Of a stretch of 64,000 nucleotides of DNA, positions 6,268 through 19,844 are shown piece by piece. The position numbers were made by a program, and so were the translations under genes. The DNA is from an uncultured Eubacteriales bacterium. Its GTDB lineage: Bacteria; Bacillota; Clostridia; Oscillospirales; Oscillospiraceae. The first letter of the stretch is position 1; each line of letters opens with the position of its first letter. The DNA is taken from positions 62,001 through 126,000 of the forward strand of contig ONEB01000004.1 of NCBI GenBank assembly GCA_900316745.1, given 5' to 3'. Below the pieces are notes generated by a model. That model did no database searches and was not told the DNA's origin. It saw only the letters and a program-made list of their open reading frames with translations.

Positions 6268-6340
6268 ATGATACAATACCATCTTAGTGTGGTATCATGC
6301 GCTTACTGCGCCAACGGATTACAGAAAACAGGTGCGAATG

Positions 6341-8056
6341 ATGACGCTTTCGGGAAAGCTCAAACAAAAGATCGGGGACGGCGGACTGCGCGAGATGTGG
6401 GACGAGACCAAATGGATGCTCACCTACATCCGGCGCTATCGCTTTGTCATCATGATCCATATTCTGCTCGGCATTGTCGGCACCTGCATGAGCCTCTTGA
6501 GCAGCATCGGCATGAAGCGGCTGATCGACGCCGTCACTGGCTTTCGTTACAGCAACATCTGGGGCGACGCGCTCTATATGGCCGGCATGCTTGTCGGCAG
6601 CGCGGTCCTCTCGGCGATCGCGGGGCGCATTGCCGCCATCATCAACATCCGCGTGCAGAACGGCATTCAGGCGGAGATCTACGACCGCATGCTGCGCACG
6701 GACTGGGAATCACTGGAATCCTTCCGCAGCGGCGATCTGCTCCAGCGCTTAAACGGCGATGTAGGCACCGTCGCGAGCGGCGTCACGAGCTTTCTGCCCA
6801 GCTTTGTCACGGGCAGCGTGCAGTTTTTCGGCTCGCTCGTGCTCATTTTGTTCTATGACCCGATGATGGCCCTCATCGCCCTCATCGGCGCGCCGCTGAG
6901 CGTGATCTGCTCGCGTGTGCTGGTGCGCCGGATGCGCGACTACAACAAGCGCATGAAGGTGCTCTCCAGCGAGGTCATGAGCTTTCACGACGATTCGTTC
7001 CGTAATCTCACGACCATCAAGGGCTTCGGGATCATGGACGCGTTCTTCCACCGGATGCTGGATCTGCAGCATCGCTACCGCACGGCGTATCTGGACTATA
7101 ACCGCTTTTCCGTGGTGGCGTCGCTCGTCATGTCGCTGGTCGGACTTCTGATCAGCGCCGGCTGCTTCGGCTGGGGCGTCTACCGTCTGTGGGCACACGC
7201 GATCACGTTTGGCGTGATGACGATGTTCCTGCAGCTGACCGGGATTTTGCGCGGGGCGTTCAGCTCCATCATCGGCCTCGTGCCGACCTATATCTCCATC
7301 ACCACCTCCGCCGGCCGTCTGATGGCGGTCGTGGAGCTCCCTGAGGAGCCCGGCGCGCGCGAGACGCTCACCGGTCTCGACGGAGACTGCGCCTGCGAGA
7401 TGCAGGACGTGACGTTCTCATATCAGGACGGGGCGAACGTTCTGGAGCATGTGAGCCTCTCGGTGCATCCGGGCGAGCTCGTAGCGCTGACCGGCCCCTC
7501 CGGCGAGGGCAAGACCACGCTCATCCGGCTCCTGCTGGGGCTCGTGCGCCCGAAGAGCGGAAGCATCACGATCACGACCGCTGACGGCGAGACGCACACT
7601 GCCTCCGCCGCGACGCGCGGAGCGTTCAGCTATGTGCCGCAGGGCAACACGATCTTTGCCGGAACCATTGCGGACAACCTCCGCATGGTGTCGCCCGAGG
7701 CGACGGACGATCAGATCCTGGAGGCGCTGGATATTGCCTGCGCCTGGGAGTTTGTAAAAAAACTGCCGGACGGCATTTACAGCGAGACCGGCGAGCTCGG
7801 GCGCGGCTTTTCCGAAGGTCAGGCACAGCGCCTTGCCGTCGCGCGCGCCGTGCTGCGCCGCGCGCCCATCCTGCTTTTGGACGAGGCGACCAGTGCGCTG
7901 GATGAGGATACCGAGCAGCGGATGCTGCACAATCTGATGGAGCGCGGCGGCGTGAGAAGCTGCGTGCTCATCACGCACCGCCCGGGCACGGCCGCCATCT
8001 GCGATCGGCGCTATGTCCTGCGCGGTACGATCCTTACGGAGGAGCAAACCGTATGA
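6341..8056 (+). CDS. ABC exporter half-transporter (membrane domain fused to ATPase)
   Basis: A type IV exporter-like protein of about 571 residues: a transmembrane domain (about 1-320) followed by a nucleotide-binding domain. The ATPase has Walker A GPSGEGKTT, a Q-loop (VPQGN), Walker B ILLLDEATSALD and an H-loop (LITHRPG). The signature is degenerate, FSEGQ instead of LSGGQ. The likely start is the second ATG of an ATGATG pair, because AGGTG sits 6 nt upstream; an in-frame GTG at 6287 lacks an SD. It ends in an ATGA overlap with the S26 peptidase gene. With the peptidase and PqqD genes it suggests export of a processed peptide; the substrate is unknown. Confidence 0.9.
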   Translation: MTLSGKLKQKIGDGGLREMWDETKWMLTYIRRYRFVIMIHILLGIVGTCMSLLSSIGMKRLIDAVTGFRYSNIWGDALYMAGMLVGSAVLSAIAGRIAAIINIRVQNGIQAEIYDRMLRTDWESLESFRSGDLLQRLNGDVGTVASGVTSFLPSFVTGSVQFFGSLVLILFYDPMMALIALIGAPLSVICSRVLVRRMRDYNKRMKVLSSEVMSFHDDSFRNLTTIKGFGIMDAFFHRMLDLQHRYRTAYLDYNRFSVVASLVMSLVGLLISAGCFGWGVYRLWAHAITFGVMTMFLQLTGILRGAFSSIIGLVPTYISITTSAGRLMAVVELPEEPGARETLTGLDGDCACEMQDVTFSYQDGANVLEHVSLSVHPGELVALTGPSGEGKTTLIRLLLGLVRPKSGSITITTADGETHTASAATRGAFSYVPQGNTIFAGTIADNLRMVSPEATDDQILEALDIACAWEFVKKLPDGIYSETGELGRGFSEGQAQRLAVARAVLRRAPILLLDEATSALDEDTEQRMLHNLMERGGVRSCVLITHRPGTAAICDRRYVLRGTILTEEQTV

Positions 8057-8508
8057 GTCCGAGAATTCTCCCGGCCTCGGTGCTGATGTCGGAATATGAA
8101 GCGCTGCTGCTTCAGGGCGCGGAGCTGCCGCTGGTGATCTCCGGCGGGAGCATGCTTCCGTTTCTTGCGCCGGGACGCGACAGCGTGATGCTCAAAAGCC
8201 CGGACAGGCCTCTGCGCCGCGGTGACATCGTCTTTTATCGCCGCAAAAACGGCGCCTACATCCTCCACCGTCTCATGCGTGTCCGAAACGGGCGCTGCTG
8301 GATGGTCGGAGACGCGCAGACGGTCGTCGAGGGACCGCTGGACATCGACTGCATCTTCGCCTATGTCACAGCCGCGCAGCGCAAGGGAAAGGTCGAAAAG
8401 CCCGGCACGTTCTGGTGGGACTTTTTCGCGCACACATGGCTGCGCGTCATTCCCATGCGACACGTCATTCTGAAAATTTACGGCCGTGTGATGCACGGAC
8501 ACAGATAA
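8053..8508 (+). CDS. S24/S26-family peptidase, Ser/His (SipW/ER-like) type
   Basis: The 151-residue protein resembles signal-peptidase I-type proteases. GGSMLPFL places a candidate nucleophile at Ser33, RRGDIVFY is box C, and YILHRL puts His72 where bacterial SPase I has the general-base Lys, as in archaeal/ER and SipW enzymes. There is no clear N-terminal membrane anchor; a weakly hydrophobic segment occurs near the C-terminus. It is coupled to the ABC gene and followed by PqqD, the arrangement seen around some RiPP (for example lasso) systems. A leader-peptide protease role is inferred. Confidence 0.82.
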   Translation: MSPRILPASVLMSEYEALLLQGAELPLVISGGSMLPFLAPGRDSVMLKSPDRPLRRGDIVFYRRKNGAYILHRLMRVRNGRCWMVGDAQTVVEGPLDIDCIFAYVTAAQRKGKVEKPGTFWWDFFAHTWLRVIPMRHVILKIYGRVMHGHR

Positions 8509-8792: not shown

Positions 8793-9545
8793 ATGATCGA
8801 TATTCACGCGCATATCATCCCCGGCGTGGATGACGGCTCAAGCGATTACGAGACGTCGATCGTCATGGCGCAGATGGCGCAGGACGGCGGTGTTACGGAC
8901 ATCATCGCCACGCCGCACGCAAACCAGCGCAGCCGCTATGAAAACTATGTGTCCGAGGATCTGGACAATCGCATGACGATCCTCTGCGCTGCGATCCGCC
9001 ATGCGGGACTCACCGTACAGGTGCATCCGGGCATGGAGGTCTTCGGCACGCCGGATGTGCCGGAGCTGCTCAGGCAGGGGAAGATCTGCACGCTGGCAGG
9101 AAGCCGGTATCTGCTGGTGGAGTTCGCGTTCCGGGAGGATCCGTATTTTATGGAGAAGCTGCTGGGACGTATCCGTGCCGAGGGCGCGGAGCCCATCGTG
9201 GCGCATCCGGAGCGCTACACCGCGCTGCAGGACATGCCGGACATCCTGTTCAACTGGGCGAAGGCGGGGTATGCGCTGCAGATCAACAAGGGGAGCCTGG
9301 CCGGCACGTTCGGCCGCAGCGCCCGGCACACCGCGAACCTGATGCTGGAGCATGATCTGGCGGCATTTGTCGCCAGCGACGCGCATGGCTCGGATCGCCG
9401 CACGGCAGAACTCTCGCGCGTCCAGGATTATATTGCGATGGAATTCTCCCATCGCCGCGCCGAACGGCTTCTGGAAACCAATCCCCGCCGCGTTTTGCGC
9501 AATCAACCGCTGGCCATGGGCGAGCCGACGCCCGTGGACCAATGA
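8793..9545 (+). CDS. cpsB: CpsB/YwqE-type PHP-domain protein-tyrosine phosphatase
   Basis: The 250-residue protein starts MIDIHAHIIPGVDDG, the PHP metal-binding motif (H5, H7), with later ATPHAN, HPERY and SDAHG segments typical of CpsB/CapC/YwqE manganese-dependent phosphotyrosine phosphatases. These dephosphorylate BY-kinases that control capsule or exopolysaccharide length. Two BY-kinase fusions follow, so its partners are local. It begins 5 bp after the PqqD stop, so the polysaccharide block may be cotranscribed with the ABC/S26/PqqD trio. Confidence 0.92.
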   Translation: MIDIHAHIIPGVDDGSSDYETSIVMAQMAQDGGVTDIIATPHANQRSRYENYVSEDLDNRMTILCAAIRHAGLTVQVHPGMEVFGTPDVPELLRQGKICTLAGSRYLLVEFAFREDPYFMEKLLGRIRAEGAEPIVAHPERYTALQDMPDILFNWAKAGYALQINKGSLAGTFGRSARHTANLMLEHDLAAFVASDAHGSDRRTAELSRVQDYIAMEFSHRRAERLLETNPRRVLRNQPLAMGEPTPVDQ

Positions 9546-9559
9546 CAAGAGGTGCTTTT

Positions 9560-10360
9560 GTGAGAAGAGGATTACCAACTGTTTTGATTGTTCTGGCCGC
9601 GCTGTCGGTCATCGGGCTCGGCGTCTATCGCTTTCTTGCTGCGCGCAGCACCAGCGGCGAGGCGCCGGTCATCAGCTTTGAATCGAATCTGCTCGAGGTG
9701 ACGACGGGCGCCACGGAGGGTGAGCTGCTTCAGGGTGTGACCGCCACGGACGCCGAGGACGGCGATGTGACGGATTCCGTGCTTGTGGAGACGAGCACGC
9801 ATTTCGTGAGCGATAAGACCGTCGAGGTGACTTATGCTGCTTTTGATTCGCAGGGACACGTCACCAAGGCAAAGCGCAGCGTTCGCTATGTGGACTATAC
9901 GTCTCCGCGCTTTCACCTTTCCGGTCCGCTGATGTTCTCTGAGTCCGGCGTCTCTGATCTGCTGAGCTATGTCGGCGCGACGGACTGCATTGACGGCAAT
10001 ATCACGTCGCGTGTCAAGGTTGCGTCGCTCGAATCGGGTACGCTCCTGAACACGCCCGGCAACCATCCGCTGGAGTTCCGCGTGACGAACAGCACCGGCG
10101 ACACGGCCTATCTCACGGTCGGGGTCGAGGTCGTGAGCGGCTATAACAGCGCGCGCCAGATCCCGCTGACGGACTATCTGGTCTACCTGCCGCTCGGCAG
10201 CGAGTTTGATCCCAAGGCCTATCTGTCGGAGAACTACGCCAACGATCGCGACCTTGCGATCACGAGCAGCGTGAATACCGCAGCGCCCGGCGTTTATGAC
10301 GTGCATTATACGCTCGGCACCAGCGCGACCAGGCTGATTGTTGTGGTAGAGGAGGGGTAA
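9560..10360 (+). CDS. Membrane-anchored protein with DUF5011-type Ig-like domains
   Basis: An N-terminal signal anchor (about residues 4-26, LIVLAALSVIGLGVY) is followed by an extracellular region. It contains two Ig-like repeats with the characteristic acidic turns DAEDGDVT and DCIDGNIT (DUF5011/HYR-like beta-sandwich domains), and a shorter C-terminal segment. The GTG at 9560 is preferred because AGAGGTG precedes it at proper spacing; an upstream in-frame ATG (9542) overlaps the cpsB stop without an SD. Its place between the phosphatase and the kinases suggests a surface or assembly-scaffold role in polymer export. No catalytic motif is seen. Confidence 0.75.
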   Translation: MRRGLPTVLIVLAALSVIGLGVYRFLAARSTSGEAPVISFESNLLEVTTGATEGELLQGVTATDAEDGDVTDSVLVETSTHFVSDKTVEVTYAAFDSQGHVTKAKRSVRYVDYTSPRFHLSGPLMFSESGVSDLLSYVGATDCIDGNITSRVKVASLESGTLLNTPGNHPLEFRVTNSTGDTAYLTVGVEVVSGYNSARQIPLTDYLVYLPLGSEFDPKAYLSENYANDRDLAITSSVNTAAPGVYDVHYTLGTSATRLIVVVEEG

Positions 10361-10365
10361 GCGAT

Positions 10366-11919
10366 ATGGAAGAAAAAAAGAACGTAAGCCCCAAGCATAC
10401 CAACAACCAGCCGCACATGCTGCTGCTTCTGCGCGTGATGGCGCGCGGGCTGTGGCTGGCGGTGCTGGCGGGCATCATTTTCGGGTGCGTTGGTTATATC
10501 ATCGCGGATCTGCGTTATACGCCCAGATATCGGACGCGCACCACGTTCGTCGTCCATCAGCGCGGCAGCTATTCGACCGTTTACGGCAACCTCAACGCCG
10601 CCACCGGCATGGCACAGAGCTTCTCGCAGGTTTTGCAGAGCGACGTGATGCGCAAGCGCGTCGCGGAAGATCTCGGCGTGAGCCGCATCGACGGCGAGAT
10701 TAAGGCGTCGGTCATCTCCGAGACGAACCTGCTGGATCTGTACATCACGTCCGACACGCCGCGCATGGCATACCGCATCACGCGCAGCATCCTGACGCGC
10801 TATAATGAGCTTACGGGCGCGGCGCTGAACAACATCTCGCTGGAGATCCTGCAGCCGCCCTCCATCCCCACGCATCCGAGCAACGCGCCGAACTCCAGGC
10901 ATGTCGCACGTGTGGCGGGACTCATCGGCGCATTGCTGATGCTGGCCTATATCGGCACCATGGCATATCTGCGCGATACGATCAAGTCGGATAAGGACGT
11001 GGAGGAGGCGCTTGATATCAAGCTTGCCGCCGTGCTCCACCACGAGCGGAAGAACAAGTCGCTCATCACCATGCTTCGCAATCCGAAGCGAAGCCTGCTC
11101 ATCTCCGATCCGACAACGGGCTTTTTGTATGTGGAATCGGTGAAGAAGCTGCGCTCGCGCGTTGAGTACCAGATGCGCCGCTCCGGCGCAAAGGTGATCA
11201 TGGTCACGTCCGTGCTTGAAAACGAGGGCAAAACCACGGTCGGCACGAACCTTGCCATCGCGATGGGTCGCAAATATAAAAAAGTGCTCATCATCGACGG
11301 CGATATGCGCAAACCCGCGCTGCACAAGATCCTGGGCTATAAAAACGAGAACGTCACCTATCTCTCCGATGTACTGGAGGGCAAGGCCACGCTCGATGAC
11401 GCGCTGATCCATGATCCGCGCCGCAACATCTATGCGATCCTGTCCTGCCACAAGGGCGAGCATGCCGCGCAGCTGCTGCAGAGCGAGCGGATGGCGCAGC
11501 TGCTCGAGCAGGCGCGCCGGGAGATGGACGTCATCATCATCGATACCCCGCCGATGTCCGCGAGCGCCGACGGCGAGTGCATCGCGCAGATCTCGGACGC
11601 AGCGCTGCTGGTCGTCCGTCAGGACCGCGCGCCTGTGCGCGTGATCAACGACACGATCGACGTGCTCAAAAACGCCAACGCCGAGCTGATCGGCTGTGTG
11701 CTCAACAACTTCTATGTTGCGGATTTTACCGAGAACATCAGCTATGGCTTCGGCGGCGGGTACGGCTACGGCGGAAAATACGGCAAATACGGCAAGTACG
11801 GCAAATACGGGAAATACGGCAAGTACGGCACTGATTATGCCGCCAAGCAGGGCTACAACAAATACGGCTACGGCACCGGCTACGGAAGCGGCAGCAGCGG
11901 GGAGGAGGAGCGCAAATGA
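10366..11919 (+). CDS. Wzz-BY-kinase fusion (capsular tyrosine kinase) with KYG tail
   Basis: The 517-residue protein fuses an N-terminal Wzz-like chain-length domain (TM about 28-48, extracellular part, second TM about 180-205) to a cytoplasmic bacterial tyrosine kinase. Walker A lies around NEGKTT (286-291), Walker A' is IIDGDMRKP and Walker B is IIIDTPP. The C-terminus is a Tyr-rich tail with six KYG units plus further YG pairs, the expected autophosphorylation cluster. In many Firmicutes the transmembrane modulator and kinase are separate (CpsC/CpsD); here they are joined as in proteobacterial Wzc. It overlaps the next kinase gene by ATGA. Confidence 0.92.
   Translation: MEEKKNVSPKHTNNQPHMLLLLRVMARGLWLAVLAGIIFGCVGYIIADLRYTPRYRTRTTFVVHQRGSYSTVYGNLNAATGMAQSFSQVLQSDVMRKRVAEDLGVSRIDGEIKASVISETNLLDLYITSDTPRMAYRITRSILTRYNELTGAALNNISLEILQPPSIPTHPSNAPNSRHVARVAGLIGALLMLAYIGTMAYLRDTIKSDKDVEEALDIKLAAVLHHERKNKSLITMLRNPKRSLLISDPTTGFLYVESVKKLRSRVEYQMRRSGAKVIMVTSVLENEGKTTVGTNLAIAMGRKYKKVLIIDGDMRKPALHKILGYKNENVTYLSDVLEGKATLDDALIHDPRRNIYAILSCHKGEHAAQLLQSERMAQLLEQARREMDVIIIDTPPMSASADGECIAQISDAALLVVRQDRAPVRVINDTIDVLKNANAELIGCVLNNFYVADFTENISYGFGGGYGYGGKYGKYGKYGKYGKYGKYGTDYAAKQGYNKYGYGTGYGSGSSGEEERK
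11776..11829 (+). repeat. Six tandem 9-bp units encoding KYG
   Basis: Six near-identical 9-bp units within the first BY-kinase gene encode Lys-Tyr-Gly repeats of the tyrosine cluster. Third-base differences (aaa/aag, ggc/ggg) show the repeat is not freshly duplicated throughout. Such repeats can change length by slippage. Confidence 0.95.
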
Positions 11920-13415
11920 ATCACGGCGAATCTACGGTTGTTGCGCGCCTCGATCCTGCGCACATCATTGCGGCATTTAAGCGCGGCTTTAAGCGGCTCT
12001 GGCTTCCCGCGATCATCGCGATCGTCCTGCTCGCGGGCATTCTCGGCTTCCGCGCATGGCGCAGCTACCGCCCGAGCTACACAGCGAGCGCGACGTTCAC
12101 GGTCTATGTCGGAAACGCCCTGCAGGCGAGCACGCCGACCTACAACGCCGCTGCGGCAGAGCAGCTTGCAAATACCTTTCCTTACATTCTCACGAGCGGC
12201 GTTCTGAGCGAGGTCGTCAAGGCGGATCTGGGTCTGCCCGCACTTCCGATGATTCAGGCAAACGTCGTGAAGGACGCCAACCTCTTTGAGCTGCGCGTAA
12301 CGGGCAGCGATCCGCAGCAGTGCTACGATGTGCTGCAGTCTGTGATCAAGAATTATCCCGATGTCGCCGAGTTTGTCATCGGACCGACGGTGCTCACGGT
12401 CGTGGACGAGAGCGGCGTGCCCACGAGCCCGACGAACGGCCGCGTATGGCGCTCGGCTGCTGAGCGCGGCGCGCTGATCGGGCTGGTTCTCTCCCTTGCC
12501 GCCATGTTCCTGTATGGCTGGGCAAAGGCGACTGTGATGGGACGCGAGGACATGGAGGAGAGCTCCAACGTCCGCTATCTCGGCGCGCTGCCCCGCGTGA
12601 TGTTCAAGCGCCGCAGCGGCGATACGCCGGTCATCACGGTGCGCTCCGACGGCGACCGCGGCTTCCGCGAGGCGTTTCGTCTGGTCATGGTGCGCCTGAA
12701 GCAGAGCCTCAAGGGCCGCCACCGCAAGGTTTTGATCGTGACGAGCGCCATCCCCAGCGAGGGCAAGACCACGGTCGCATTCAATATTGCGCTCTCGCTT
12801 ACGGAGAAGGGCAAGCGCGTGATCCTGGTCGACTGCGACATGCGCAATCCCTCCGTGTACCAGATGACCGGACAGGAGGAATGCGTCGGTCTCGGCGACT
12901 GCCTGCGCGGAGAGGTCGAGCCGAAGAACGGCCTGAAATCCCTCGCGCATGTGTACGAGGAGGAACCGAACCTGAGCATCATCTATGCCGGCAAGGCGGG
13001 GGCAACACCGCCTGAACTGCTCGGCAGCGAGGAATTTGCCACGTTTATCATGGACCTGCGCAGAACCTTTGATTATGTGGTGCTCGATACGCCGCCCTGT
13101 TCGCTGCTGTCTGACGTCAGCGAGCTGCACGGCGTCGCGGACTGCGCCGTGCTCGTGGTGCGGCAGAACTTCGCAAGTAAAAACAGCGTGATCAGCACGC
13201 TCATGATGCTCAGCGAGTACGATATTCCGGTCGCCGGGTACATCATGAACGCCTACGACGGACGGATCTCGGGCGGCCACAGCTACGGTTACGGCTATGG
13301 CTACGGTTACGGATACGGCTATGGATACGGCTATGGCTACGGTTACGGCTATGGCTCAGGAAAGAAATATGGCGAATACGGCGAGGAGCCGAAACAAAAG
13401 ACCGAAGAGGGCTGA
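11916..13415 (+). CDS. Second Wzz-BY-kinase fusion with YG-repeat tail
   Basis: The 499-residue paralogue of the preceding gene has an N-terminal TM (about 29-47), a Wzz-like extracellular domain, a second TM (about 185-205) and a BY-kinase domain. Walker A is SEGKTT (about 281-286), Walker A' is ILVDCDMRNP and Walker B is VVLDTPP. The tail has 12 consecutive Tyr-Gly dipeptides and then a KKYGEYGEE segment. Both kinases keep the nucleotide-binding motifs, so both may be active. Tandem paralogues with different tyrosine tails imply either distinct partners or cross-phosphorylation under the CpsB-type phosphatase upstream. Confidence 0.9.
   Translation: MNHGESTVVARLDPAHIIAAFKRGFKRLWLPAIIAIVLLAGILGFRAWRSYRPSYTASATFTVYVGNALQASTPTYNAAAAEQLANTFPYILTSGVLSEVVKADLGLPALPMIQANVVKDANLFELRVTGSDPQQCYDVLQSVIKNYPDVAEFVIGPTVLTVVDESGVPTSPTNGRVWRSAAERGALIGLVLSLAAMFLYGWAKATVMGREDMEESSNVRYLGALPRVMFKRRSGDTPVITVRSDGDRGFREAFRLVMVRLKQSLKGRHRKVLIVTSAIPSEGKTTVAFNIALSLTEKGKRVILVDCDMRNPSVYQMTGQEECVGLGDCLRGEVEPKNGLKSLAHVYEEEPNLSIIYAGKAGATPPELLGSEEFATFIMDLRRTFDYVVLDTPPCSLLSDVSELHGVADCAVLVVRQNFASKNSVISTLMMLSEYDIPVAGYIMNAYDGRISGGHSYGYGYGYGYGYGYGYGYGYGYGYGSGKKYGEYGEEPKQKTEEG
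13284..13355 (+). repeat. Twelve tandem TAY-GGN units encoding YG dipeptides
   Basis: A 72-bp stretch of 12 six-base units encodes (Tyr-Gly)12 in the second BY-kinase tail. Synonymous changes (tac/tat, ggt/ggc/gga) interrupt exact identity. It is a potential length-variable tract that would keep frame in 6-bp steps. Confidence 0.95.
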
Positions 13416-13458
13416 TCTTCGGCCTGCTGTGCTGGGATACTTTAGGGAGAATGATTCC

Positions 13459-15354
13459 ATGGGAGAACACACCAATAAGAAAAAATTGATACGGCTGCTG
13501 GGACTGCTCGTGGCGGATATTATTGTGATCAACGCTGCTGCATTCCTGGCGCTGTATCTCCGCTTTGAGTTTGGGCACCCGCCGGAGGAGTATCTGGATC
13601 ACCTGCGGCAGTACGCGCTGGTCAACACCTGCCTGACGCTGCTGATCTTCTATCTTCTTCAGCTGTATTCCAGCCTCTGGGAGTTTGCCAGCACCATGGA
13701 GCTGATCCGGATCGGGATCGCCGTGGCGCTCAGCGGCGTCGCCTACTGGATCGGGACGAACCTGCTGCATCTGCGGATGCCGCGCAGCTTTCCGATCATG
13801 TATATGCTGCTGCTCGGCGTGGGCTGCATGGCAGTGCGCTGGGGCTACCGCGCCGCGCGGCTCCATCGCCACGGCGGCCACAGCGCCCAGCGGCGGCGCA
13901 CGATGATCATCGGCGGCGGCGCTGCCGGCGCGATGGTCATTCGGGAGTTTCTTTACAGCGAGCACTCTGAAAACAAGGTTGTCTGCATTCTTGACGACGA
14001 TCCCGCCAAGACCGGCAGCTATCTGCGCGGCGTGCGCGTCGTCGGCACGACGGCACAGCTCAAGCAGATGGTGCAGAAATACCGCGTCGAGGAGATCGTG
14101 CTCGCGATTCCCTCTGCCACGCGCCAGCAGCGCGCGAAGATCGTGGATCTGTGCCAGGAGACGACCTGCCGTCTGCGCACGCTTCCGGGCCTGTATCAGA
14201 TCGCCAATGGCGAGGTGAGCATCCAGAGCCTGCGCGAGGTGGACATCGAGGATCTGCTCGGCCGCGACATCGTGAAGATCAATCTCGACGAGGTCGCCAG
14301 CTACATCACCGGCAAGACCGTGCTCGTCACGGGCGGCGGCGGCAGCATTGGCAGCGAGCTCTGCCGTCAGGCGGCGGAGCAGCACCCGAAAAAGCTGATC
14401 ATCTTCGACATTTACGAAAACAACGCCTACACGCTGGAGCTTGAGCTCAGGCGCCGGCATCCGGAGCTGGATCTGCTCGTGCTGATCGGCTCCGTGCGAG
14501 ACGCCGCGCGCGTCAATTGGATCTTCGAGAAGTATCATCCGGATCTGGTCTGTCATGCTGCGGCCCACAAGCACGTCCCGCTCATGGAGGCCTCGCCCTT
14601 TGAGGCGATCAAAAACAACGTCTTCGGCACGCGCAATGTCGCGCGCGCGGCGGGCGAGTACGGCACACGCCGCTTCATCCTGATCTCGACGGACAAGGCG
14701 GTCAACCCCACGAACGTCATGGGCGCGTCCAAGCGCATGTGTGAGATGATCGTTCAGACGATGAACGAGCGCTATTTGAACACCGACTATGTCGCGGTGC
14801 GTTTCGGCAACGTTCTGGGCTCCGCCGGCAGCGTGATCCCGCTGTTTCGCCGCCAGATCAAGGAGGGCGGACCCGTCACGGTCACGGACAAGAACGTCGT
14901 GCGCTACTTCATGACGATTCCGGAGGCGGTGCAGCTGATTTTCCAGGCCGGCGCTTATGCGCACGGCGGAGAGATCTTTGTGTTGGATATGGGCGATCCG
15001 GTGCGCATCGACGATCTGGCGCGCAACATGATCCGCCTGTCCGGTCTGGAGCCGGACGTCGATATCGAGATCGTCTATACCGGCCTGCGCCCGGGCGAAA
15101 AGCTCTATGAAGAGCTTTTGCTCTCCGGCGAGGGGATGCAGAAAACGCCGAACGATCTCATCTACATCGGCCATGAGCTGGCCTTTGACAAGGAACGCTT
15201 TCTCGCCCGGCTTCATTCGCTGGAGAGCTGGAGCGAGCCGGACGGCGACGTTTTGCGTGATATGATCGCGCAGATCGTGCCGACCTATCACGAGCCTGTG
15301 CGCGACCTGCCGCGCGCGGAAGAAGGAGCAGAGCATGCAGCAAGCAGAGTATAA
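13459..15354 (+). CDS. FlaA1/CapD-like nucleoside-diphosphate-sugar epimerase/dehydratase
   Basis: A 631-residue membrane SDR enzyme: four N-terminal TM helices (about 8-130), a first Rossmann domain (MIIGGGAAG) and a second NAD-binding domain with VLVTGGGGSIGSE. The catalytic region STDKAVNPTNVMGASKR is typical of 4,6-dehydratases such as WbpM, PglF and CapD that make UDP-6-deoxy-4-keto sugars for glycan synthesis. The chosen ATG has GGGAG 9 nt upstream; a longer frame starting inside the kinase gene is a shadow. It follows the kinases by 43 bp and overlaps the LCP gene, supporting a polysaccharide operon. Confidence 0.92.
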   Translation: MGEHTNKKKLIRLLGLLVADIIVINAAAFLALYLRFEFGHPPEEYLDHLRQYALVNTCLTLLIFYLLQLYSSLWEFASTMELIRIGIAVALSGVAYWIGTNLLHLRMPRSFPIMYMLLLGVGCMAVRWGYRAARLHRHGGHSAQRRRTMIIGGGAAGAMVIREFLYSEHSENKVVCILDDDPAKTGSYLRGVRVVGTTAQLKQMVQKYRVEEIVLAIPSATRQQRAKIVDLCQETTCRLRTLPGLYQIANGEVSIQSLREVDIEDLLGRDIVKINLDEVASYITGKTVLVTGGGGSIGSELCRQAAEQHPKKLIIFDIYENNAYTLELELRRRHPELDLLVLIGSVRDAARVNWIFEKYHPDLVCHAAAHKHVPLMEASPFEAIKNNVFGTRNVARAAGEYGTRRFILISTDKAVNPTNVMGASKRMCEMIVQTMNERYLNTDYVAVRFGNVLGSAGSVIPLFRRQIKEGGPVTVTDKNVVRYFMTIPEAVQLIFQAGAYAHGGEIFVLDMGDPVRIDDLARNMIRLSGLEPDVDIEIVYTGLRPGEKLYEELLLSGEGMQKTPNDLIYIGHELAFDKERFLARLHSLESWSEPDGDVLRDMIAQIVPTYHEPVRDLPRAEEGAEHAASRV

Positions 15355-16420
15355 GGACCCCAAGCCGGGCAAGGAGAAAAAGCCCAAAAGCAAGCCGCCC
15401 AAACGGCGGAGCCGGATGAGCAAGGGCTCGCGCGTCCTGCTCACGATCGTGTGCGTCGTCGTGGGTATTGCAGCGGTGCTGGGCGCGACAGTGTTCGTGC
15501 TCGACCGCATCGGTCACGGTGCGCTCACCGGCGACGGCGAGGACATGCGTCTGCACGACGATGCCGAGAACATCGACGCCGGACGCGTGCGCTACAAGGG
15601 GCAGCTGTATCAGTATAAAAACGACGTGAGCACCATCGTGTTCATGGGTGTGGACTCTGAGGAGAAAAATACCTCCGGCGGCGAATTCGGCGACTCCAAT
15701 CAGGCGGACGTGATCGTGCTGGGCGTTCTGGATCCGACGACGAAGCACATTTCGCTCATCTCCGTCTCGCGTGACAGCATGTGCGAGATAGAGGTGCTGG
15801 ATGACAACGGCGCAAGCCTCGGCACGGCGCGCGCGCAGCTTGCGCTTTCCTATGCCTATGGCGACGGCGGCGACCGAAGCTGCCAGCTCACCGCCGACGC
15901 GGTCTCGAAGCTCTTCTATGATCTGCCCGTCTCGGCCTACGCCTCTATTTATATGGACGGCGTTGCCAAGCTCACGGATCTTGTCGGCGGCGTCACCGTG
16001 ACGCCGCAGGAGACATTCGGCGCGTTCAAGGCGGGCACGCCTGTCGTGCTCAACAGCTCCAATACCGAGGCCTATCTCCGTCACCGCGATAAGACGGTCG
16101 AGGGCAACAACGGCCGTATGGAGCGCCACAAGGCCGTGATGATCGAGCTCGCCAAGGCGATGCTCAGCAAGGTGCGTCAGGATCCGATGAGCATCCTTTC
16201 CATCTATGACGGCGTTTCCAAAAACGTGACGACCAATATCGACGCTCCCGCAATGGTGTATCTGGCGCGCGTCGCCTCCCGCATGACGCTCAATACGGAT
16301 GTGCAGAAAGTCGCCGGTACCTCGACGCTCGGCGCGGGCAACCACGCGGAGTTCAACGTGGACGAGACAGCGCTCTATGAGCTGATTTTGAAGACCTTCT
16401 ATGAGCCGATCGATGGATGA
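15335..16420 (+). CDS. LytR-CpsA-Psr (LCP) family wall-polymer ligase
   Basis: The 361-residue protein has a Lys/Pro-rich cytoplasmic start, one TM helix (about 33-56) and an extracellular LCP domain. The domain shows FMGVDSEE, QADVIVLGVLDP and ISVSRDSMCEI, with later RHRDKTVEGNNGRMERH, the Arg-rich polyprenyl-phosphate site. LCP proteins transfer capsule, teichoic acid or other polymers from lipid carriers to peptidoglycan. A good SD (AAGGAG) lies in the end of the dehydratase gene, with a 20-bp overlap. It fits as the attachment step of this block. Confidence 0.93.
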   Translation: MQQAEYKDPKPGKEKKPKSKPPKRRSRMSKGSRVLLTIVCVVVGIAAVLGATVFVLDRIGHGALTGDGEDMRLHDDAENIDAGRVRYKGQLYQYKNDVSTIVFMGVDSEEKNTSGGEFGDSNQADVIVLGVLDPTTKHISLISVSRDSMCEIEVLDDNGASLGTARAQLALSYAYGDGGDRSCQLTADAVSKLFYDLPVSAYASIYMDGVAKLTDLVGGVTVTPQETFGAFKAGTPVVLNSSNTEAYLRHRDKTVEGNNGRMERHKAVMIELAKAMLSKVRQDPMSILSIYDGVSKNVTTNIDAPAMVYLARVASRMTLNTDVQKVAGTSTLGAGNHAEFNVDETALYELILKTFYEPIDG

Positions 16421-17189
16421 CGTGAGACGCCCGGTCGCGGTGTTTGACTCCGGCATGGGCGGCGTGAGCGTCCTGCGCGAACTTGTGCGGCTGATGCCTG
16501 AGGAGGACTATCTCTATTACGGGGATTCCGCCAACGCGCCCTACGGCACCCGCTCGGTCGATGACGTGCGCGCGCTGACGCTCAGGCGGATCGGCGCGCT
16601 GCATGCGCGCGGGATCAAGGCCGCCGTCATCGCCTGCAACACAGCGACGAGCGCGGCGGTCGATCTGCTGCGGAGAACGTTTTCGGACATCCCGATCATC
16701 GGCATGGAGCCGGCTGTAAAGCCCGCGGTGCTCGCGCATCCGCACGGACGCGTGCTCGTGCTGGCGACGCCGCTCACGCTGCGGGAGGAGAAATTCAACG
16801 CACTGCTCAAACAGTATGCGTCTCTGGCGGAGATCGTGAAGATCCCGTGTCCCGAGCTCGTGGAATTTGTGGAACGGGGCGATCTCGGCAGCATGGCGGT
16901 CTATGATTATCTCGAGCAGCGTCTCGGCGCGTATCGGGGAAAAGCGGACGCGGCCGTGCTGGGCTGCACGCATTTTCCGTTTCTGCGGCGCGCCATTGCG
17001 CAGGTGCTCGGAAACGAAACCGAGCTTTTCGACGGCGGGGCGGGGACTGCGCGCGAGACGGCGCGGCAGCTCTCGGCACGGGGAACACGCGCCGAAGCCG
17101 GACATGTCGGCACGGTGCTGATTGAGAACAGTCGTGAAGATTCCCAAGAGATCGCGCTGACAAGACGGCTTTTACAGTCAGATTTGTAG
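16401..17189 (+). CDS. murI: Glutamate racemase
   Basis: Converts L- to D-glutamate for peptidoglycan. The 262-residue protein shows VFDSGMGG near the start, YYGDSANAPYG, IACNTATS (first catalytic Cys) and LGCTHFPF (second catalytic Cys), the full set of MurI motifs. It overlaps the end of the LCP gene. The start could instead be the ATG at 16413, as neither ATG has a strong SD. Placement at the end of the surface-polymer block links it to wall synthesis. Confidence 0.95.
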   Translation: MSRSMDDVRRPVAVFDSGMGGVSVLRELVRLMPEEDYLYYGDSANAPYGTRSVDDVRALTLRRIGALHARGIKAAVIACNTATSAAVDLLRRTFSDIPIIGMEPAVKPAVLAHPHGRVLVLATPLTLREEKFNALLKQYASLAEIVKIPCPELVEFVERGDLGSMAVYDYLEQRLGAYRGKADAAVLGCTHFPFLRRAIAQVLGNETELFDGGAGTARETARQLSARGTRAEAGHVGTVLIENSREDSQEIALTRRLLQSDL

Positions 17190-17225: not shown

Positions 17226-17254
17226 TTGCATTTCAAGTCTGATTGTAGTAGAAT
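17226..17254 (+). promoter_or_regulatory. Promoter of the small sortase-substrate candidate
   Basis: TTGCAT, a 17-bp spacer and TAGAAT lie about 45 bp upstream of the small ORF's ATG, in an AT-rich gap after murI. Confidence 0.65.
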
Positions 17255-17298
17255 AACCTTGATATTACTAGAATATAACCTGGATGGAGGTAACGCAT

Positions 17299-17541
17299 AT
17301 GAGAAAGTTTATGGCCATCGTTCTGGTCGTCGTGCTCGTGTTCGCAATGGCTTCCGTTGCTTTTGCAGATAATGGCGTTGCGAGCCCCGAGAAGGGCAAC
17401 ACGAAGCCGACTCCGGCTCCGAGTGGCAACAAGTCTCATCAGACCGGTGAGAGCTTCTCCGTGGTTTGGGTCGTTTTGGCGGCTGTTGTGCTGCTGGGCG
17501 TTGCATTCTTCTGCGGAAAGAAGTTTATTGCTGTCAAGTGA
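17299..17541 (+). CDS. Small secreted protein with sortase-like sorting signal
   Basis: The 80-residue protein has a classic signal peptide (1-23, cut after AFA) and a short hydrophilic Pro/Thr/Lys-rich segment (24-45). The motif SHQTGE (46-51) follows, then a hydrophobic helix (about 53-72) and a short tail containing KK. That motif-helix-basic-tail order is a cell-wall sorting signal, and a class B sortase gene lies immediately downstream. Cleavage between T49 and G50 would leave a wall-linked peptide of only about 26 residues. The ATG at 17299 has a GGAGG SD; an upstream ATG overlaps that SD and is rejected. Function is unknown; the motif assignment is inference. Confidence 0.72.
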   Translation: MRKFMAIVLVVVLVFAMASVAFADNGVASPEKGNTKPTPAPSGNKSHQTGESFSVVWVVLAAVVLLGVAFFCGKKFIAVK

Positions 17542-17559
17542 TGGACGTTCAATTGCCGA

Positions 17560-17615
17560 TGCAAAGGCTCCATGTTCGCATCTGAATGCGGCCATGGAGC
17601 CTTTGCACGTTTTTT
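17560..17615 (+). terminator. Strong terminator between substrate and sortase genes
   Basis: A 15-bp perfect outer stem (17560-17574 with 17593-17607) with an additional inner GCAT/ATGC helix is followed after two bases by six T. It ends only a few bases before the sortase SD, and the first in-frame ATG of the sortase frame falls inside it. Confidence 0.93.
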
Positions 17616-17630
17616 CGGGAGGCCCTCGGC

Positions 17631-18392
17631 TTGAAAAAAACACTCTTTCGCACCGTTTTGATCATTATCCTGCTCGCTGCCCTGATAGCCAGCGCGTGGT
17701 GCATTTGGTATATTGTCCAGTATTACGGCGGCCGCAGCTTCAAGGATAACCTGCGCCGGATCGGTATGCGGGATCCTGTGGAGATTGATCCCGAGGTCGA
17801 GACGATCGAGATTCCCGTGGATTTTGACGCGCTGCATGCGATGAACCCGGACATCTACGCCTGGATCGAGATTCCGGACACCGACATCAGCTATGCTGTG
17901 CTGCGCCGCGAGGGCGACAACAACTACTATATGAATCATGCTGAAAACGGCTCGTACTACTCCGGCGGCTGCATTTTCAGCGATGATTTCAACAGCCCCG
18001 ACATGACGGACCCCGTCACCATCCTTTACGGGCACAACCTCCGCAACGGCACCATGTTTGCCAAGCTCAATGATTTCGTGGACAGCGGAGTGTTCTCTGA
18101 CCACCGTTACATGTATCTCTATCGCCCGGACCGTGCGCTGGTGTATGAGATCTTCTCTGCCGCCCCGCACAGCAGCGAGCAGATTCTCGCGGAGCATGAC
18201 TTCACCGACCGCGAGGCCTACACCGCGTTTTTCGCCGACGTCGCGTCCGTCTCTTCCTCCGCGCAGCGCAGGGAGGACAGCTTCCCGACATTCGGCGACC
18301 GCGTTCTCATTCTCAGCACCTGCTTCCGTGTCAACAACCAGCAGCGCTTCCTCGTGATGGGCAGACTGGTTGCAGATATTCCTGCCGCATAA
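17631..18392 (+). CDS. Class B sortase
   Basis: A membrane-bound transpeptidase that joins surface proteins to the cell wall. The 253-residue protein (TTG start) has an N-terminal TM (about 8-28). The sortase domain has catalytic His135 (LYGHNLRNG), Cys231 (LSTCF) and Arg239 (QQRF), with the extra N-terminal helical region typical of SrtB. The TTG is chosen because GGGAGG lies 8 nt upstream and an in-frame ATG at 17586 is inside the terminator hairpin. No promoter fits between terminator and start, so expression probably depends on readthrough from the substrate gene. Confidence 0.93.
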   Translation: MKKTLFRTVLIIILLAALIASAWCIWYIVQYYGGRSFKDNLRRIGMRDPVEIDPEVETIEIPVDFDALHAMNPDIYAWIEIPDTDISYAVLRREGDNNYYMNHAENGSYYSGGCIFSDDFNSPDMTDPVTILYGHNLRNGTMFAKLNDFVDSGVFSDHRYMYLYRPDRALVYEIFSAAPHSSEQILAEHDFTDREAYTAFFADVASVSSSAQRREDSFPTFGDRVLILSTCFRVNNQQRFLVMGRLVADIPAA

Positions 18393-18519: not shown

Positions 18520-18548
18520 TTGTCATAACGAGTTGACTGTGCTATAAT
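18520..18548 (+). promoter_or_regulatory. Promoter of the C39-like/SLH surface protein
   Basis: TTGTCA, a 17-bp spacer and a perfect TATAAT lie about 33 bp upstream of the ATG. The preceding 100 bp is A-rich, resembling an UP element. Confidence 0.85.
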
Positions 18549-18581: not shown

Positions 18582-19844
18582 ATGAAGAAACGTATCATCA
18601 GCGCGCTGCTGATGCTGGTGCTTGTGGCCGTTCTGGTCGGTCCGATGACGACCGGTGCGTCCGCCTCGCAGCAGCTCACAGCCACTCCGTACACACCCGT
18701 AGAATACAGCTATTCCGCCCGTGCCCAGGCCGGCACGATCCGCTATTGCTCCCAGCTGAAGATGTCCCCCTATTTCTATGAGGCCTACTGGGGACCCTAT
18801 GTGGACTATGCCGGTCATGAATGCCTGACCGCATGCGTCTCCATGGCGCTGAGCTATGTCGGCGTGAGCGCCACGCCCGCAGAGCTGGGCGACTACTGGA
18901 ACATGAAGGGCTATACCGGCGGTGTCCCGTTCCGCACGATCCAGTGGGACACCAGCGGCTTCGGCGGCAGCTATGTCAAGGCCTCCCTGGACGGTGCGAC
19001 TGCCAACTATCTCAACGGCCGCGGTACTTACAGCCCGGCAGTCATCCACCTGAAGAGCTATTCCGTCAACGGTCACTGGGTCATGGTCGCCGGCAAGATC
19101 GACGCGCACACCTATCTCATCGTCGATCCCGCGAACGATTACGCCTGGCCGCTGACCTACTACAACGGTGTCGTCACCTACCAGCGCAACGGCAACACCC
19201 TGACCGAGACGCTCAGTGACGAGACCTTCCAGTACTACAACGCCAGCGTCAGCGTCGCGCTCGCCGCCAAGACCCATGCCGACGGCGCTGTCTGCCCCTC
19301 CACGGTTTACACGGACGTCCCCGACGAGGGCAACTGGGCGCACAGGGGCATCGACTTCTGCGTGGACCGCGGTCTGATGAACGGCGTTGACACCACGCAC
19401 TTCCAGCCCAGCGCACAGATGACGCGTGCCATGCTCGTCACGGTGCTCTACCGCGCGGCAGGCTGCCCGAGCGTTTCGGCCGCCGTGCCGTTCACGGATC
19501 TGGACGCCGACTGGTATCGCAGCGCTGTTGCCTGGGCGTATGCCTCCGGCGTGACCGCCGGTATGACGGATAACCGCTTCGATCCGTACGGCACCGTCAC
19601 GCGTGAGCAGATGGTCGCGATGCTCTATCGCTTCAAGACCATGCAGTCCGGCGCGAGCAACGCCGACCTCTCCGCGATCAGCGGCTTTGCCGATCAGGCG
19701 GCCATCGCCCCCTGGGCGACCACCGCATTCTGCTGGGCGGTGGACAGCGGCATCATCAACGGCAGCGACAATCTGCTCATGCCGCAGGGCAACGCCGACC
19801 GCGCACAGATCGCCGCGATCCTGATGCGCTATCTGCAGGCGTAA
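18582..19844 (+). CDS. Secreted C39-like peptidase with three SLH domains
   Basis: The 420-residue exported protein has a signal peptide (about 1-29). A papain-like C39_2-type domain follows (about 50-230), with candidate catalytic Cys81 (HECLTAC), His165 (NGHWVMV) and Asp182 (IVDPAND). Three S-layer homology domains (about 245-420) have the usual Asp-Trp/Ala and R-x-Q/E-M motifs. SLH domains tether proteins to secondary wall polymer, so this is a surface enzyme; substrate is unknown. The usual C-G-P around the nucleophile is replaced by C-L-T, so activity is uncertain. It is monocistronic between its own promoter and terminator. Confidence 0.85.
   Translation: MKKRIISALLMLVLVAVLVGPMTTGASASQQLTATPYTPVEYSYSARAQAGTIRYCSQLKMSPYFYEAYWGPYVDYAGHECLTACVSMALSYVGVSATPAELGDYWNMKGYTGGVPFRTIQWDTSGFGGSYVKASLDGATANYLNGRGTYSPAVIHLKSYSVNGHWVMVAGKIDAHTYLIVDPANDYAWPLTYYNGVVTYQRNGNTLTETLSDETFQYYNASVSVALAAKTHADGAVCPSTVYTDVPDEGNWAHRGIDFCVDRGLMNGVDTTHFQPSAQMTRAMLVTVLYRAAGCPSVSAAVPFTDLDADWYRSAVAWAYASGVTAGMTDNRFDPYGTVTREQMVAMLYRFKTMQSGASNADLSAISGFADQAAIAPWATTAFCWAVDSGIINGSDNLLMPQGNADRAQIAAILMRYLQA

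Follow-up and report, generated by a model that had tools for sequence, protein, structure and literature searches.

A gene for an LCP (LytR-CpsA-Psr) glycopolymer ligase lies near most sortases of the group to which the sortase studied here belongs, a linkage that is new here. In the window, by which we mean the whole 64,000-nucleotide stretch of DNA analysed, this sortase is paired with a small gene whose product would leave 26 residues on the cell wall, and the pair closes a cluster of capsule genes. We propose, with confidence evenly balanced, that the small protein serves an LCP–sortase capsule-attachment module as its minimal anchor peptide. Genes in the window, which comes from a draft genome of 2.44 Mb in 39 contigs, run in the order CpsB phosphatase, Ig-like protein, two Wzz/BY-kinase-like genes, CapD-like enzyme, LCP, glutamate racemase, small gene and sortase, with the capsule genes (8793-16420) in one cluster on one strand. 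The features are as follows.

8793..10360, +: CpsB-type capsule phosphatase and Ig-like surface protein (PF19567, 202 bits; PF16403, 49 bits)
10366..13415, +: two chain-length/tyrosine-kinase-like genes (Wzz and P-loop ATPase) with Tyr/Gly-rich tails (Wzz match of the second gene 17.2 bits, below cut-off)
13297..15354, +: CapD-like polysaccharide biosynthesis enzyme (PF02719, 397 bits)
15335..16420, +: LCP glycopolymer ligase (PF03816, 72 bits against a cut-off of 24.6; relatives have an orthologue close to the pair)
16401..17189, +: glutamate racemase-like gene between the LCP gene and the small ORF (Asp_Glu_race, 70.1 bits)
17226..17254, +: promoter-like pair TTGCAT-17 nt-TAGAAT before the small ORF, a weak match read from the sequence
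17299..17541, +: small gene for the predicted sortase substrate, 80 aa (sequence, homologues, alignment, dN/dS)
17299..17367, +: signal peptide, predicted cleavage after AFA (sequence; A-F-A common to the eight genus rows of the alignment)
17368..17445, +: predicted mature wall peptide, 26 residues (computed length), with an N-terminal V-x-S-P-E/Q element (S29 and P30 invariant in 14/14)
17434..17448, +: sorting motif SHQTG, which is SPQTG in 13 of 14 aligned homologues (alignments)
17446..17541, +: rest of the predicted sorting signal, comprising G, hydrophobic helix and basic tail (alignment of nine sorting signals)
17560..17617, +: strong hairpin and T run, terminator-like, between the small ORF and the sortase (folding)
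17631..18392, +: predicted class-B-like sortase, 253 aa, TTG start, N-terminal membrane helix, H135/C231/R239 (Pfam, NCBIfam, alignment, SrtB structures)

The small gene is read from ATG 17299, which is preceded by GGAGG, because the listed ATG 17284 would read through the ribosome site. Its 80-residue product reads, in order, MRKFMAIVLVVVLVFAMASVAFA, DNGVASPEKGNTKPTPAPSGNKSHQT and GESFSVVWVVLAAVVLLGVAFFCGKKFIAVK, the second segment being the mature 26-residue stretch, which ends in SHQT; a signal peptide precedes this stretch, and a G, a hydrophobic helix and a basic tail follow it. The layout of a sorting signal, as recognized in a sequence-only reading that preceded this analysis, stands with all its parts (signal peptide, motif, helix and basic C terminus), and the roughly 26 residues that it was said to leave on the wall come to exactly 26 when computed from the predicted cuts after AFA and between T and G. 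Seven homologues from the same genus share 54-75% identity with the window's protein, and across the whole gene dN was below dS in all 28 pairs of genus homologues (for example 0.02/0.37, 0.03/0.33 and 0.08/0.76), which together show that this is no chance ORF. Curated sorting-signal models missed the protein, which scored 10.2 bits with PF00746 Gram_pos_anchor (cut-off 20) and 14.4 bits with TIGR01167 (cut-off 15.9). Its best NCBIfam match was the EF2685/EF0750 family of short sortase-dependent proteins (NF053819), and membership was rejected because the score, 18.8 bits, fell far below the cut-off of 47.

The sortase begins 89 nt beyond the small gene, most likely at TTG 17631 behind GGGAGG; we prefer this start to the listed ATG 17586, which lies inside the strong hairpin (17560-17608). 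The protein is a predicted class-B-like transpeptidase: it matched Pfam Sortase PF04203 at 44 bits, above the cut-off of 26.6, and the NCBIfam SrtB model TIGR03064 at 140.6 bits, under the cut-off of 153.75, hence 'class-B-like'. A profile search of solved structures matched 15 different PDB sequences at E <=1e-5; sortase B is the name given to 12 of these. H135, C231 and R239, which we take to be the catalytic His, Cys and Arg, are invariant across 12 aligned sortases, and a structure model (mean pLDDT 74.9, used for this helix alone) places a predicted N-terminal helix at residues 2-45.

The two genes occur together in relatives. With each protein searched in 60 genomes, ten of them from the same genus including the window's own, the small ORF and the sortase (at least 55% identity) were adjacent in eight of the ten. 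Orthologues of both were missing from the other two, G007 and G009: the small-ORF search returned nothing from either at E 0.1, the only sortases in G007 are about 30% identical, and G009 yielded no sortase at E 1e-20. The same two genomes account for the misses in the LCP search, where an orthologue was found in seven of nine genus relatives (E 1e-40), and they gave only partial, weaker CapD matches; the long CapD match was also missing in G005, whose contig begins just before the LCP gene. In the wider family, a search of 400 genomes gave 13 sortases at E <=1e-100 in five genera, and with G004, a genome outside that listed sample, all 14 closest sortases have a short ORF encoding a signal peptide and sorting signal directly upstream. 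The high rank of these 14 is partly by construction, since the sortase profile was built from 12 of them, and the loci outside the genus that entered it were first found with the small-protein profile. Conserved adjacency and a motif invariant in all 14 proteins both bear out the idea, already present in the sequence-only reading, that the small protein is the substrate of the adjacent sortase, and from these sequences it is very probably a dedicated one.

Alignment of the 14 small proteins showed eight invariant residues (M1, S29, P30, S46, Q48, T49, G50 and K75), so that S-x-Q-T-G before the helix, the pattern whose conservation had been put forward as a check, is present in 14/14. Position 47 is Pro in 13 proteins and His solely in the window's draft assembly, and the (S/P)PxTG consensus that SHQTG misses is satisfied in the other 13 homologues. 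Clostridioides difficile SrtB, a sortase of the same class, cleaves SPQTG among other motifs in vitro and leaves an NVQTG peptide uncut, according to the sections of that report available to us (PMC4155245), and published motif simulations, as far as the text at hand goes, are relevant to the (S/P)PxTG motifs of C. difficile (PMC5118464). Together, SPQTG in 13 of 14 homologues and its cleavage by C. difficile SrtB point to SHQTG as a one-genome substitution within an ordinary motif family. The earlier description of the motif as noncanonical thus holds for the window, where H replaces P, and not for the family; SHQTG as a new motif class was rejected because the change occurs in one genome among the 14 aligned. 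With the Pro lost, SHQTG may itself be a poor sortase site, given that NVQTG, which is changed at two positions, went uncut.

Within the mature stretch, which is short and rich in Pro, Ser, Thr and Asn, the S-P element by the N terminus is invariant (14/14), and the middle differs in length and sequence. This statement of conservation is drawn from the 14-row alignment; a scripted count of S-P near the mature N terminus was dropped for the tiny proteins, for which it misplaced the cleavage sites and took the sorting motif into the counted stretch, and gave 7 of 26 for larger substrates, against a background of 0.075 per stretch and with crude cleavage calls. A 79-residue protein from another family of the class (locus L240, genome G714) has AVISPGSEN and later SPKTG, and the tiny proteins of G191, G013 and G388 have N termini of other kinds.

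The capsule setting of the pair is shared to differing extents. Capsule gene order is the same in genus relatives within the stretch covered, except in G006, whose CapD orthologue lies on another contig, and, as a point against the module, in the window and the genus about 0.4-1.2 kb separates LCP from sortase, occupied by the small gene and usually the racemase gene. The racemase-like gene lies inside the capsule block in seven of eight genus loci and is absent from G006 and from the loci of other genera examined. Capsule genes also lie beside the module in G133, G199, G249 and G173, from two other genera. Also counting against the module, such genes do not accompany the peptide–sortase–LCP triad everywhere: LCP was the sole capsule query found in the stretch covered in G135, G191, G013 and G388, and G154 had LCP and CpsB there. 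Both Wzz/BY-kinase-like genes of the window (10366-13415) end in Tyr/Gly-rich repeats (KYGKYG..., GYGYGY...), presumably the usual tyrosine autophosphorylation site.

We assessed LCP linkage on a tree of 98 sortases, comprising 17 from tiny-substrate loci, 36 from further family loci, 15 from 391 class genomes, eight from named contigs and 22 from the host genome and the 60-genome search. The tree was quick, midpoint-rooted and without bootstrap, and sortase score, not the presence of LCP, decided which rows entered it. The window's sortase falls in a group of 73 sampled sortases (SH-aLRT 98), of which 62 have a same-strand LCP gene within 1.5 kb, compared with none of the 25 outside (LCP profile built from tiny-substrate loci). 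Flanks were unequal, with at most about 1.5 kb on each side for 20 of the 25 outside rows and about 4 kb for the other five (L245, L247-L250), as against 2-4 kb or more for many in-group rows; the count within 300 nt (34/73 versus 0/25) is less exposed to this imbalance. Dividing the rows by sortase score in place of the tree gave 61/73 at 180 bits or above and 1/25 below, and the whole 2.44-Mb host genome holds two LCP matches. Eleven group sortases had no LCP gene in the stretch covered, which for two of these extended about 4 kb to either side; this weighs against the module.

Substrate size varies within the group. A scripted search recognized sorting-signal genes near 45 of the 73 group sortases, compared with 4 of the 25 outside; none was recognized near the remaining 28 in the group, which likewise weighs against the module. 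Substrate ORFs of at most 112 residues occur in twenty rows, all with LCP nearby (20/20); L220 was put in this tiny group by hand because its longest ORF starts far upstream. The other 26 recognized neighbours in the group have 129-307 residues, and a Pfam scan of nine larger neighbour proteins gave one anchor match above cut-off and otherwise sub-threshold matches or none. By parsimony the tiny-substrate label changes five times on the tree, with at least two changes forced by supported branches.

Published systems offer two comparisons. As in the window, a class B sortase of Mediterraneibacter gnavus is clustered with an LCP gene, a BY-kinase/phosphatase pair and capsule genes: srtB4, which from the locus tags we infer to be RGna_12035, lies in the cluster RGna_12030 to RGna_12060 with the LCP gene RGna_12040 and the tyrosine phosphatase gene RGna_12055 (PMC13121745). 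In the parts of that report drawn on here, the srtB4 mutant lacks the capsule halo, packs tightly and has reduced wall polysaccharide, a non-polar deletion has a like phenotype that was complemented, and the same tests place the LCP mutant among those with a capsule-presentation defect (PMC13121745). The same parts mention candidate targets with sorting signals near M. gnavus sortase genes and name neither the target of srtB4 nor its action on the capsule; we set srtB4 beside the window's sortase by published description, not by sequence (PMC13121745). In Actinomyces oris, according to the available text, LcpA glycosylates the sortase-anchored protein GspA before anchoring and lcpA adjoins gspA, so that, as with the predicted substrate in the window, an LCP gene lies near the gene of a sortase-anchored protein; A. 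oris differs in that its sortase is the housekeeping SrtA, and GspA is likened to the 26-residue peptide by description alone (PMC6381275). C. difficile SrtB, in the sections available, has several predicted substrates (adhesins, hydrolases and a nucleotidase), whereas the window offers one tiny candidate and an LCP partner (PMC4155245). Among the titles and abstract openings of open-licence literature, we found no report that connects an LCP enzyme with a tiny class B substrate.

Taken together, the M. gnavus srtB4 and LCP mutants and the A. oris LcpA/GspA pair suggest that a wall-linked peptide may help an LCP enzyme to hold the capsule, and we lean towards a role in capsule attachment for the peptide–sortase pair. 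Under our proposal, Sec would export the small protein and signal peptidase would trim it; the sortase would cut S-H/P-Q-T|G and link the 26-residue peptide to peptidoglycan; and the pair would form a capsule-attachment module with the LCP enzyme of the cluster, which would transfer lipid-linked capsular polysaccharide, with the wall-linked peptide as the required tether. In its most economical form, LCP would load the glycan on the peptide, with the invariant Ser close to the mature N terminus as the first candidate site, before the sortase fixes the glycopeptide to the wall. That the peptide itself carries capsular glycan is a tentative suggestion by analogy with A. oris GspA/LcpA. The sequence-only reading had the small protein as a sortase substrate, which stands, and overlooked the capsule and LCP context when considering its role.

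The bearing of this on capsule biology begins with the 2026 M. gnavus report, whose available text shows that a bacterium common in the human gut depends on a class B sortase to present its capsule (PMC13121745). How a protein-anchoring enzyme acts on a sugar coat would find a minimal, concrete answer in this locus, in a tiny substrate and an LCP partner. If the peptide carries glycan, capsule anchoring in many relatives would follow a route known, from the text at hand, for one actinobacterial protein (PMC6381275); if it does not, an explanation is still needed for a sortase with a single recognized substrate, from which about 26 residues would stay on the wall. More broadly, there may be a second, Gram-positive-type way to hold a capsule, possible rather than probable, in which LCP would load capsular polysaccharide not on a peptidoglycan sugar but on a peptide of about 16-28 residues that the sortase anchors, with larger substrates of the same sortase group acting likewise and the globular part lost or gained more than once.

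LCP may instead need no peptide, since the known LCP acceptor is MurNAc in peptidoglycan; the text available describes its use by LCP enzymes, with A. oris LcpA as the exception (PMC6381275). The small protein would then have a surface role of its own, as a spacer or brush anchored to the wall, while LCP attaches the capsule directly to peptidoglycan, and sortase, peptide and LCP would share a locus because all act on new wall. A mature stretch that is short, rich in Pro, Ser, Thr and Asn and variable outside the S-P element suits such a spacer. A shared locus by itself does not readily explain why LCP linkage divides 62/73 against 0/25 by sortase group, nor the capsule loss described in the consulted parts of the M. 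gnavus srtB4 report (PMC13121745), and we consider this explanation somewhat unlikely.

Expression signals bear on a further alternative. The hairpin between the two genes was assessed by folding, as the automatic consensus terminator scan did not report 17560-17617: the computed fold of 17545-17625 has an energy of -39.8 kcal/mol (z -6.0), a hairpin occupies this position in all 14 loci, and four or more consecutive Ts, read by eye, closely follow the stem in ten, with weaker tails in G001, G004, G005 and G135. We infer the layout of a read-through terminator, which would keep substrate mRNA above sortase mRNA. Upstream, a loose TTGxxx/TAxxxT pattern precedes all 14 small-ORF homologues; a consensus promoter scan did not call the TTGCAT/TAGAAT pair at 17226. 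More small protein than enzyme is also what might be seen if the protein were a decoy, inhibitor or activator that regulates or paces the sortase, with the true capsule-related substrate encoded elsewhere, and our search for host-genome substrates, by profile only, leaves room for other substrates. A nearly invariant sorting motif argues against such a regulator, as does that search: of the next two matches of the sorting-signal profile, one carries TPQTG and the other, which has a sortase of its own alongside, TPRTG, and no other SxxTG substrate was seen among the matches read, all of them stronger than two further ones at E 1.06 and 3.37. A PF00746 scan of the host genome at E 10 was of little use, as it also matched 13 of 14 control genomes. 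A regulatory role is, on this evidence, quite unlikely.

Taking the small protein for a plain small membrane protein in which SHQTG is incidental would fit the imperfect motif of the window's genome and the sub-threshold anchor score; with S-x-Q-T-G unchanged in 14 proteins whose peptide middle varies, and the gene beside a sortase in every one of the 14 loci, we judge this very improbable. Least probable of all, and by our estimate barely credible, is that the sortase sets the peptide free or cyclises it, and that the product acts as a diffusible signal or in the manner of a bacteriocin. The short precursor with its conserved N-terminal element and cleavage site might suggest this; the scanned neighbours (capsule, LCP and wall genes, with the sole ABC exporter-like gene at 6287-8056, about 9 kb upstream) do not. 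The free signal entertained in the sequence-only reading is not supported, and neither is its pilus-like tip, no pilin family having been found in the 17 neighbouring proteins scanned.

Several minor observations concern neighbouring and related loci. Downstream of the window's sortase, behind a strong promoter-like pair (TTGTCA-17-TATAAT, 18520-18548), the product of the gene at 18582-19844 has three S-layer homology stretches and matches a C39 peptidase below threshold; five further loci of the genus encode a protein like it downstream of their sortase. On host contig C27 (L100), a second sortase (7383-8255) is close to a 1218-residue TPKTG protein (10385-14041), in a region that looks like a conjugative element. 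Two sortase–LCP pairs occur in one class genome (L240, 2422-8911), the second followed by the 79-residue sorting-signal protein and capsule-type genes. In L064, L065 and L070, sorting-signal proteins of 91-133 residues are encoded downstream of the sortase, and two of them have repeated acidic Pro-Asp units before the sorting motif.
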